A stretch of 51,580 nucleotides of DNA from assembly GCF_016793225.1 (NCBI RefSeq), contig NZ_JAEUMN010000023.1, forward strand, positions 1-51,580. The letters run 5' to 3'. Of the stretch, positions 38,863 through 40,886 are shown piece after piece; position 1 is the first letter of the stretch, and each line of letters opens with the position of its first letter. The notes under the pieces were generated by a model. That model made no database searches. It was not told the DNA's origin and was given only the letters and a program-made list of their open reading frames with translations. This DNA is from Phenylobacterium sp. (GTDB taxonomy: Bacteria > Pseudomonadota > Alphaproteobacteria > Caulobacterales > Caulobacteraceae). Made by a program: the position numbers and the translations under genes.

Positions 38863-38925
38863 CGGCCCCTCAAACCGCGTTCGCGCGCGTCACGCAAGCG
38901 CCGCGAGTCGCCGCCGCAAACCTTT

Positions 38926-38946
38926 GCTTAACTGCATAAATTAAGC
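38926..38946. promoter_or_regulatory. A+T-rich inverted repeat in divergent promoter region
   Basis: GCTTAA (38926-38931) and TTAAGC (38941-38946) are inverted repeats with a 9-base spacer in the only A+T-rich part of the thioesterase/VanZ-like gap. It resembles a CtrA site but has N9 instead of N7 between the TTAA halves, so I treat it as an unassigned dyad. Confidence 0.35.
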
Positions 38947-38979
38947 CTGAAGTCAGGGCGGCCGCGTACCTTGGCCCGC

Positions 38980-39381
38980 ATGATGTTGGGGCATCAGATC
39001 GACTTCCGGGCCCGCGGCCTCCCCCGCGCGCTCTACACGCCCGTCGGGGCGGGCCTGTGCCTGGCCGTGCTGATCCTGTCGCTCAGCCCGGCCGCCGAGC
39101 CGTTCCTCGCGCGCCTGATGATCTTCTACGGCGCCACGACCCTGGCCTACGCGATGATGCCCTACGTCCGCCGCGGCGACATCCCGCTCGTCGCCGCATG
39201 GGTGATCCTGTTCGCCGAGCTGGCCCCCTGCTTCACGGGCCAGCTGATCTCGCCGGTGAAGGTCGCCGCCGACGGGCTGGGCGTGCTCATGGCCGCCGCC
39301 CCCGTCTACGTGGCCCGTCTGCGGCAGGTGCAGCAGGGCGACACCCGGCCCGCCGGCCGCCGGGCCGGCGAACCCGACTAG
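38980..39381 (+). CDS. Small integral membrane protein, possibly VanZ-like
   Basis: A 133-residue protein with four predicted membrane helices (VGAGLCLAVLILSLSP; LMIFYGATTLAYAMMPYV; LVAAWVILFAELAPCF; AADGLGVLMAAAPVYV) and a charged tail. The spacing of Glu in ILFAELAPCF and Asp in KVAADGLGVL recalls VanZ-like proteins, but the match is weak. Starts possible at ATG 38980 or 38983, or TTG 38971. Single gene, ending 94 bases before the left inverted repeat of the GIY-YIG unit. Confidence 0.65.
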   Translation: MMLGHQIDFRARGLPRALYTPVGAGLCLAVLILSLSPAAEPFLARLMIFYGATTLAYAMMPYVRRGDIPLVAAWVILFAELAPCFTGQLISPVKVAADGLGVLMAAAPVYVARLRQVQQGDTRPAGRRAGEPD

Positions 39382-39475
39382 ACGAGGGGCCGACTGCGCT
39401 GAGGTCCGCTTGCCACCGGGTGAGCGATGACCGCATTCGACCCGTTGCGGACATCGACCCTTGCGCCCCAACCTC

Positions 39476-39526
39476 CGTCATCCCGGGCGCAGCGCTCGCC
39501 AGAGCGCGAAGACCCGGGACCCAGCC
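39476..39526 (+). repeat. Left 51-bp REP-like inverted repeat
   Basis: A 51-base palindromic unit: outer stem TCCCGGG (39481-39487)/CCCGGGA (39513-39519), inner stem GCGCTC (39492-39497)/GAGCGC (39502-39507) with loop GCCA. It is the inverse complement of 39947-39997 at 50 of 51 positions (one A/G difference). The match stops abruptly at both ends, so the unit is a discrete repeat. Confidence 0.9.
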
Positions 39527-39546
39527 GCACAGCTCTCGACGCGCCC

Positions 39547-39882
39547 CTACGACTGCATCCACGACAGCGGCCCCTCCGGAGCCTCGAACCACGCGTCGGA
39601 CAGGTCGCGCCAGTCCGGGTTTTGGGTCTCGATCAGTTGCAGCTTCCAATCCCGTCGCCAGCGCTTGATCTGCTTCTCGCGCCGGATCGCCTCACCCATC
39701 ACCGCATGAACCTCGTACCAGACGAGCCGCCTGCAGCCGTGGGTCTTGGAGAAGCCTTCGAAGGTCCCGAGCTTGTGCTGTCGGATGCGGGTGACGAGGG
39801 TGCTGGTCACGCCCGTGTACAGCGTCCCGTTGCGCCCGCTCGCCAGGATGTAGACCGCGATGAGGGGGTCTCGGCCGACCAT
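39547..39882 (-). CDS. GIY-YIG domain nuclease-like protein
   Basis: A 111-residue stand-alone GIY-YIG domain of the UPF0213/YhbQ type. The two signature tyrosines are Tyr11 (AVYILAS) and Tyr22 (LYTGVTS); the catalytic Arg32 lies in TRIRQHK and metal-binding Glu69 in IRREKQIKRW, so the nuclease centre looks intact. A conserved NPDWRDL follows near the C-terminus. Such proteins are assumed to cut or bind DNA, but the cellular role is unclear. It fills the space between the two inverted repeats: its stop is 20 bases from the left one and its ATG 64 bases from the right one. Confidence 0.92.
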   Translation of the reverse strand: MVGRDPLIAVYILASGRNGTLYTGVTSTLVTRIRQHKLGTFEGFSKTHGCRRLVWYEVHAVMGEAIRREKQIKRWRRDWKLQLIETQNPDWRDLSDAWFEAPEGPLSWMQS

Positions 39883-39921
39883 CGCTGCAGGTTAGGTCAA
39901 GGCCGCGTGCGTGTCGCCTTT

Positions 39922-39940
39922 CCCGGCGCAGCTTGCCGGG
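39922..39940. other. Small hairpin upstream of the GIY-YIG gene
   Basis: CCCGGC-gcagctt-GCCGGG gives six perfect pairs with a 7-base loop, between the GIY-YIG start and the right inverted repeat. It may be part of the repeat unit or a 5' untranslated structure. Confidence 0.35.
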
Positions 39941-39946
39941 TGGAGT

Positions 39947-39997
39947 GGCTGGGTCCCGGGTCTCCGCGCTCTGGCGAGCGCTGCGCCCGGGATGACG
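39947..39997 (-). repeat. Right 51-bp REP-like inverted repeat
   Basis: Inverse complement of 39476-39526 except for one base. Inner stem GCGCTC (39966-39971)/GAGCGC (39976-39981), outer TCCCGGG (39954-39960)/CCCGGGA (39986-39992). The nine bases GGGATGACG at its end recur once more at 40005-40013, a possible fragment of a further copy. Confidence 0.9.
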
Positions 39998-40021
39998 GGG
40001 GGATGGGATGACGTCCGCCAC

Positions 40022-40051
40022 GGTCCCCCTCCCGCCGCTTCGCGGGGGAGG
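40022..40051. repeat. REP-like C-rich palindromic element, copy 2
   Basis: GGTCCCCCTCCCGC-cgctt-cGCGGGGGAGG shares its arms with copy 1 at 37976-38012 but has a longer loop. It lies 24 bases from the right 51-base repeat, in the 251-base gap 39883-40133, which otherwise shows no gene. Clustering of different palindromes suggests a compound repeat site. Confidence 0.65.
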
Positions 40052-40133
40052 TAAGGCGCCGCAGCCCACCCCTATCGGATGTTCAAGCAGTCCGCCTTCC
40101 ACCTGCTCCCAGGTTATGAGTCCTCGACCTAGG

Positions 40134-40886
40134 CTAGCTGCGCGTGAAGACCGGGTCGCGTCGCTCGCGGAAGGCTTCCAGCGCCGCCTTGTGGTCGTTC
40201 GACCTGCGCAGGATCCGCAGCTCGTCGCCCCAGATGCGCCCGGACTCCTCGGGCGACAGGTCGAGCGCCCGGTGCGCCGTGCGCTTGGTGGCCTCCACCG
40301 ACAGCGGCGCCCGCGTGGCGATCCGCTCGGCCAGCGCCACCGCGGCGTCCTGAAGTCCCTCCGGCGCGTGCAGGCCGGTCACCAGGCCGTAGCGCTCGGC
40401 CGTCTCGGCGTCGTGGGGCAGGCCGGTCAGCAGCATCGACTTCGCCCGCGACTCCCCGATCAGGCGCGGCAGCCGGTAGGTCGAGGCCATCAGGCCCACG
40501 TTGACGCCCGCGCACACGAACCGGGCCTCGGTCGACGCCAGCCGGATGTCGCAGCACAGGGCGAGTTCGAACCCGCCGCCCACGCACCAGCCGTTCACCG
40601 CGGCGATCACGGGAACGCGGCTGCCTTCGACACGGTCGAGCAGGCGGCCGAAGCCGGCCAGGTCCTCGCCCTTGCCCGCCGCCTGCTTGAGGTCGTCGCC
40701 CGAGCAGAATGCCCGGCCCCGCCCGGTGACGATCAGGCAGCGCAGGGCGTCGTTCCGCTCCACCTCGTCCAGCGCGGCCATGAAGGTGGCGCGCATCTCG
40801 GGACCCAGGGGGTTCATGGGCGGGTTGTCGAGTTCGAGCCGCGTGATCGCGTCGGAAATCCGCTCGATGTGCACAACCCCGCTCAC
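40134..40886 (-). CDS. Enoyl-CoA hydratase/isomerase (crotonase) family protein
   Basis: A 250-residue crotonase-fold protein acting on acyl-CoA. The oxyanion-hole segments FCSGDDL and WCVGGGFELALCCD are present, the latter with Glu107 equivalent to Glu144 of rat hydratase. The second catalytic Glu of hydratases (Glu164) appears replaced by Gly in FVCAGVNVGLMAS, so the protein may be an isomerase, a different lyase or a carnitinyl-CoA-type enzyme rather than a standard hydratase. It starts at GTG in a GTGA overlap with the CoA transferase gene, third gene of a three-gene operon. Confidence 0.92.
   Translation of the reverse strand: MSGVVHIERISDAITRLELDNPPMNPLGPEMRATFMAALDEVERNDALRCLIVTGRGRAFCSGDDLKQAAGKGEDLAGFGRLLDRVEGSRVPVIAAVNGWCVGGGFELALCCDIRLASTEARFVCAGVNVGLMASTYRLPRLIGESRAKSMLLTGLPHDAETAERYGLVTGLHAPEGLQDAAVALAERIATRAPLSVEATKRTAHRALDLSPEESGRIWGDELRILRRSNDHKAALEAFRERRDPVFTRS

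Follow-up and report, generated by a model that had tools for sequence, protein, structure and literature searches.

A stand-alone GIY-YIG nuclease gene between inverted CGTC-tagged REP hairpins in Phenylobacterium: a candidate self-mobile unit

A single nuclease-like gene enclosed by nearly identical inverted hairpins raises the question of whether gene and repeats form one unit, and whether that unit could move itself. We addressed this at a locus of Phenylobacterium sp. that lies in a window of 51,580 nucleotides (the whole stretch of DNA that was analysed, contig NZ_JAEUMN010000023.1). The features of the locus are as follows, with coordinates in the window.

39456..40006, no strand: largest extent of the putative mobile unit, the block common to the copy on contig C82 (95.8% identity, 552 columns)
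39456..39471, + strand: outer flank GACCCTTGCGCCCCAA, present without mismatch at three type-A units (C41, C51, C82) and nowhere else in the genome
39476..39526, + strand: left REP hairpin of the CGTC-tagged kind, its tag facing out and its CCA tail (39521-39523) facing in
39527..39546, - strand: short spacer from the stop codon to the left REP
39547..39882, - strand: GIY-YIG nuclease gene, 111 aa, intact (Pfam GIY-YIG E 4.7e-15)
39883..39946, - strand: leader from the right REP to the start codon, partly retained in gene-less derivatives
39947..39997, - strand: right CGTC-tagged REP hairpin, inverted, 50/51 identical to the left REP

A preliminary description of this DNA had reported a pair of 51-base inverted repeats matching at 50 of 51 positions, each a two-tier hairpin (TCCCGGG/CCCGGGA outside, GCGCTC/GAGCGC inside), around a single intact GIY-YIG gene. 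All three points hold: alignment confirms the match (53/55 identical when the alignment is extended), folding as single-stranded DNA returns two-tier hairpins at -15.5 kcal/mol for the left repeat (z -3.6 against shuffles) and -17.4 kcal/mol for the right (z -4.0), and one open reading frame of 111 aa lies between them. The hairpin pattern CCCGGG..CCCGGG matches the window twice, at the two 51-nt repeats, and is absent from 100 shuffles. Both CGTC ends point outward and both CCA tails inward. A Pfam scan of the 111 aa found the GIY-YIG domain and no transposase, HUH/Y1 or further domain. The unit is neither a classical IS nor a homing intron; the gene is free-standing and intergenic with one Pfam domain, and neither an intron nor an intein was seen there. 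No known RNA family matched positions 38900-40600 at E values up to 0.1, and consensus searches gave no promoters or terminators around the unit.

The 71-nt sequence around the left repeat has 12 matches in the 4.6-Mb assembly, ten of which form five inverted pairs; the other two are a single match (C113) and a weak one of 28 nt (C70). Two pairs, that of the window (C41) and that on C82, enclose the gene, and the units they bound are alike to within about 20 nt of the repeats, outside of which there are just two short matches of 24 and 27 nt. The unit may reach about 20 nt beyond the left repeat, to 39456, because the C82 copy aligns over 39456-40006. The remaining pairs (C51, C137 and C144) are gene-less, measure 192-256 bp and have spacer sequence in common with the full unit. 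C144 still has leader sequence and some of the gene's 3' end, which makes it an internal-deletion relative of the full unit. No target duplication was visible by eye at the five units of this genome, and no clean empty site was found there.

Two further observations concern the edges of the unit. The genome has exactly three copies of GACCCTTGCGCCCCAA, all bordering type-A units on their outer side, and upstream of it further similarity is patchy; it may be an element end or a preferred target. On the other side of the window unit, positions 40023-40061 hold another hairpin that looks like a repeat, CTCCCGCCGCTTCGCGGGGGAGGTAAGG, and sequence similar to it also borders the units at C51 and C137.

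The window repeats fit the CGTC-tagged REPs. In the available part of the survey by Di Nocera and colleagues (2013, PMC3733652), these are described as a CGTC or TGTC tag, a hairpin and a CCA tail, mostly arranged as dimers and commonest in alphaproteobacteria, in a superfamily that takes in the Neisseria dRS3 and Rickettsia RPE-4/6 repeats. Tag, hairpin, CCA tail and dimers are common to the window type and to CGTC REPs including dRS3; the window type differs from those described in the available part of PMC3733652 in its longer, two-tier loop. The superfamily stem opens with complementary A/T and has a loop of 4-5; in the window REP the T pairs, the first A faces a C and the loop is a second hairpin, and the full AT..AT form occurs in many relatives. 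Among 239 REPs near 80 named relatives of the gene, the tag is CGTC in 153 and TGTC in 85 and the tail is CCA in 224, counts to be read with the fact that the scanner itself demanded such ends.

A looser pattern gives 170 CGTC REPs in the window genome against 1 for a reversed-pattern control, with several types among the matches listed. Close REP pairs in 30 loci of this genome have their tags outward in 9 of 10 cases. The commonest is type C, with 92 matches, beside which no GIY-YIG gene was seen in this assembly; type-C-flanked GIY-YIG genes are present in relatives (L256, L280, L287 and L288). Other GIY-YIG genes of the genome go with other REP types, C38 having a type-B dimer directly upstream. 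A frame upstream of C115 resembles a type-D REP end as read from its translation, where the motif scanner made no call.

We then asked how general the pairing of gene and repeat is. The preliminary description had seen a geometry like that of RAYT/REP loci, had read it as a possible alternative to RAYT for spreading repeats, and had proposed to count GIY-YIG genes beside such repeats; the enrichment found supports this reading. Among 80 named loci, the best 80 of at least 584 relatives and found by protein alone, a CGTC REP lies within 300 bp in 77, and on both sides in 60, as it does on both sides in the window; control windows give 30/580 and 1/580. The motif scanner used was written after the repeats had been seen, and a comparison made without it gives inverted flanking repeats at 53 of the 80 loci against 7 of 229 control genes, five of those seven coming from one REP-rich assembly (L126). 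Across genus and class, inverted repeats connect the flanks at 35 of 59 loci, compared with 0 of 100 control positions chosen within those loci (best match per genome, 400-bp flanks, blastn E<1e-4). The genus sample, 93 of 109 matches with the 16 weaker ones left out, has inverted flanks at 43 loci and a REP on at least one side at 59 and on both sides at 25 (controls 6/59 for any side and 0/59 for both). The class loci alone have a REP within 300 bp in 22/29, controls in 4/55.

In a phylum-wide sample a REP was found within 300 bp at 27 of 30 loci, including 11 of the 12 outside the alphaproteobacteria (controls 3/57). Inverted flanks were present at 17/18 alphaproteobacterial and 6/12 other loci, counts made by hand and with no controls of their own, six of the 30 loci being repeats (L092, L098, L100, L102, L106 and L118). 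REP-linked named loci include members of Omnitrophota, Elusimicrobiota, Chloroflexota, Nitrospirota, Bacteroidota and candidate-phylum bacteria, and in Neisseria gonorrhoeae the gene sits among CGTC REPs of dRS3 type. Three records listed as plasmids (NZ_CP119140, NZ_CP119142 and CP090106), of 2.2 Mb in N. gonorrhoeae and 3.7 Mb in Sinorhizobium meliloti ('pSymB'), are probably chromosomes. With UvrC, another GIY-YIG gene, as control, 1 of 19 loci had a REP no more than 300 bp from its domain match; this control is weak because one side of the match falls within the gene. The association of gene and REP is strongly shown. That the gene merely lies among repeats that are common between genes is hardly credible: REPs are frequent in some genomes, as the 170 in the window genome and the L126 matches illustrate, but all control sets and the correlation with nuclease clade described below contradict it. 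A chance origin was likewise rejected, with no match of the hairpin pattern in 100 shuffles and low values in all flank and REP controls.

The protein itself is under purifying selection as judged from dN/dS, which is 0.05 between the C41 and C82 copies and 0.16-0.26 against relatives. Tyr11, Tyr22, Arg32, His36 and Glu69 (Y11, Y22, R32, H36, E69) are invariant in 39 sequences, and we take them to be the catalytic residues of GIY-YIG enzymes. The nearest solved relatives by profile are UPF0213 (YhbQ-like) structures, PDB 1zg2 (E 8e-10) and 1ywl (E 4e-6), and NCBIfam has no match for the window protein. The UPF0213-type label of the preliminary description needs correction: the family does not appear to be UPF0213 itself, and a paralogue in the same genome that is UPF0213-like by reading of its sequence (C49) lies on a very long branch outside the window family, with no REP in its 3.2-kb locus by motif scan. 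A distant GIY-YIG gene (34-37% identity; L122, genome G338) has on its two sides an inverted repeat of a different kind, 131 nt long, and in S. meliloti (L078) the 3' end of a second GIY-YIG frame, with the same REP type, lies 300 bp upstream of the gene.

One reading of a conserved protein so closely paired with its cognate REPs is that of a housekeeping partner, which would trim or resolve REP hairpins or cruciforms and stay nearby without mobilising anything. Purifying selection and the pairing itself agree with this, but the gene is patchy, being present in 51/101 genus and 92/289 class genomes; some genomes carry several copies, and broken copies, plasmid copies and presence or absence at the same sites are also found. 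These features fit a mobile element better, and we regard a purely housekeeping role as improbable. REP-flanked genes are scattered across the whole protein tree. Some well-supported neighbours come from different phyla, which suggests horizontal spread of the REP-flanked genes, in a tree that is built on few columns, has many open forks and includes some assemblies that are metagenome bins.

To see whether the type of REP goes with the nuclease or with the host, we compared protein distance with the edit distance of the nearest REP for 59 genus loci with a recognised REP, leaving out the 34 of 93 without one. Over 1681 pairs from different genomes the Mantel r is 0.71, a value reached in none of 2000 permutations (highest 0.24). 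Similar proteins in different genomes have a mean REP distance of 0.139 (125 pairs); for dissimilar ones that share a genome it is 0.407 (18 pairs). By both measures, REP type within the genus follows the nuclease clade and not the host genome. The correlation shows that nuclease and REP travel together, not an action of either on the other; co-inheritance of a linked unit gives the same correlation.

The pairing also bears on whether gene and REPs could be cargo, moved in trans by another transposase such as a RAYT or an IS. A clade-specific pairing with the nuclease would be unexpected under such an arrangement, and the available part of PMC3733652 reports that transposase genes were sought beside CGTC REPs, with just a few fortuitous associations. 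REP-rich genomes with no intact relative do exist, as cargo would allow; we nonetheless consider this explanation very improbable.

The preliminary description had also raised the question of whether the repeats are equally common without the gene. They are commoner with it: among 289 genomes of the class (Alphaproteobacteria), at least five REPs occur in 42/92 gene-positive and 21/197 gene-negative genomes (odds ratio 7.0, p 1e-10, a p value that is too small because the genomes are related). When the genomes are binned by size, the two middle bins show the difference clearly (p 6e-4 and 4e-5) and the two outer bins show it weakly (p 0.20 and 0.07). Two REP types were counted genus-wide, with carriers defined from the sampled loci only. 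Genomes whose sampled gene is flanked by type AA hold 15, 12, 11 and 23 copies of that type, and at least ten are found in 5 of 97 others (p 5e-5); the type C carriers hold 25, 14, 113 and 20, and at least ten are found also in 16 of 97 others (p 7e-4). Types C and AA together reach five or more copies in 24/51 gene-positive and 11/50 gene-negative genus genomes (p 0.01), so that the link of these types to any such gene within the genus is modest.

REP-rich genomes without the gene do exist, and the tie between gene and REP is thus not strict. For 12 gene-negative class genomes with at least ten REPs, a loose profile search yields a relative in two and none in ten, and 41 of the 92 gene-positive genomes have two REPs or fewer by the pattern used. 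A Pfam GIY-YIG search of 20 genomes returned matches of UvrC length and some that were short or weak. It also returned two frame-broken relatives (L308 and L336) in G038, a REP-rich genome that is gene-negative by threshold; there were no close relatives at the other loci of the 14 examined in that follow-up. The broken relatives fit loss of the gene after spread. E. coli genomes without a RAYT also retain REPINs, according to the available part of PMC8049555.

Sites with and without the gene were found in two further genera. On Sphingobium plasmids, seven records (H54-H60) have an insertion bearing the gene in the gap from fnrL to a response-regulator gene; in one of them, TomTYG73, the protein match is in two pieces. 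Four others (H61-H64) lack the insertion there, and the alignment covered these four together with three of the filled records. In two of the unfilled records, TomTYG64 and TomTYG74 (L083 and L085), a single 29-nt palindrome at the place of the gene consists of the outer halves of both REPs, and could be the scar of a deletion or the target of an insertion. Among Azospirillum plasmids, that of A. lipoferum 4B (L082) carries the gene, flanked left and right by REP dimers, between sufB and sufC, so that the Fe-S assembly operon is split at this point; A. ramasamyi, A. oryzae and strain B510 are without it at that site. REP pairs are polymorphic among Sphingobium spacers in 50-kb stretches of six plasmids, from which no exact insertion junction was obtained, the spacers being too diverged. 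The Rhizobium plasmids L51/94 against B21/90 and R. tumorigenes 1078 gave no exact junction either, as they differ by tandem REP pairs and are uninformative.

The palindrome raises an alternative in which the gene is a homing-type parasite: the REPs would spread by other means, the nuclease would cut unoccupied REPs and its own gene would be copied in, making the REPs landing sites of the gene and not its products. The two unfilled Sphingobium alleles fit this, REPs do occur without the gene, and GIY-YIG is a known homing fold (PMC1564403, available part). Against it, the C51, C137 and C144 spacers match the full unit, C144 with gene remnants, so that the REP pairs of type A descend from the element; REP copy number is also higher in genomes with the gene. 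We consider the homing-type reading unlikely.

Our preferred interpretation is that the locus is likely a small self-mobile unit, a stand-alone GIY-YIG gene in a pair of CGTC-tagged REPs, or in other words an autonomous REPIN. The flank tests, the pairing of nuclease clade with REP type, the two gene-bearing copies, the gene-less pairs and the filled and unfilled sites support it, as do the higher REP counts with the gene, purifying selection and the invariant, presumably catalytic, residues. Counted against it are the REP-rich genomes without a relative (10/12), type C with no resident partner found, the modest link within the genus, the 41/92 REP-poor carriers, the option of co-inheritance, and the lack of an exact junction or target duplication. 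The nuclease may act catalytically on the REP: it would recognise hairpins of the REP type with which it is paired, when replication exposes them as a single strand or cruciform, and nick at or beside the CGTC tag. From this nick the segment bounded by the REPs could be copied into another intergenic position, either by a single-strand route as in RAYT, or by cutting an existing REP with repair from the element, as in homing. Gene-less REP pairs might be moved in trans by the nuclease, and as the gene decays the REPs would be left as relics. Extended to the family, we lean towards the stand-alone GIY-YIG proteins being the dedicated mobiliser of CGTC REPs across bacteria, including alphaproteobacteria, Neisseria dRS3, other Pseudomonadota and candidate phyla.

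Such a unit would work like a RAYT/REPIN system but would not be a member, because the scan gave no HUH transposase domain and the REPs do not have a GTAG tag. In the RAYT/GTAG-REP/REPIN loci described in the available parts of PMC3733652 and PMC8049555, too, REP hairpins enclose a single nuclease-like gene, paired REPs point their tags outward, further pairs without the gene occur in other parts of the genome, each REP type has its own enzyme clade, and REPs are also present in genomes that lack the enzyme. RAYT is an IS200/IS605-like HUH transposase; here there is a GIY-YIG domain, no HUH, and a CGTC tag. The available part of PMC8049555 describes RAYTs as single-copy, vertically inherited and not self-copying, whereas the window-type gene has a patchy distribution and more than one copy, has been duplicated along with the REPs around it and also occurs on plasmids. 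GIY-YIG homing endonucleases of the I-TevI type have the same catalytic fold and a link with selfish DNA, but the window gene is single-domain, is associated with no intron or intein that we saw, and is bracketed by its own repeats. MITEs and classical IS elements share the inverted ends and the gene-less internal-deletion forms, and differ from the unit in that it has hairpin ends, no transposase domain found and no target duplication seen by eye.

To our knowledge, the enzyme class, with its putative action on DNA, is unlike that of every known REP or IS mobiliser. The repeats are known and the enzyme partner appears to be new. The 2013 survey, in its available part, reports that CGTC REPs lack a dedicated transposase and does not mention GIY-YIG (PMC3733652). 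The literature we searched, in the parts available, contained no paper joining GIY-YIG proteins to REPs; an earlier report of the link is possible elsewhere because preprints and most subscription papers were outside the search.

CGTC REPs are widespread, and what spreads them was left open by the 2013 survey in its available part (PMC3733652). If a GIY-YIG protein spreads them, that gap would be closed and a new enzyme class would be added to the movers of DNA, in mobile elements of a kind that would have a GIY-YIG nuclease as their sole enzyme, with hairpin ends as its substrate. It would also provide a second, independent REPIN system in which to study how small repeats spread and persist, a candidate explanation for the dRS3 arrays of Neisseria, and a likely function for a large group of genes annotated merely as GIY-YIG nuclease family protein.
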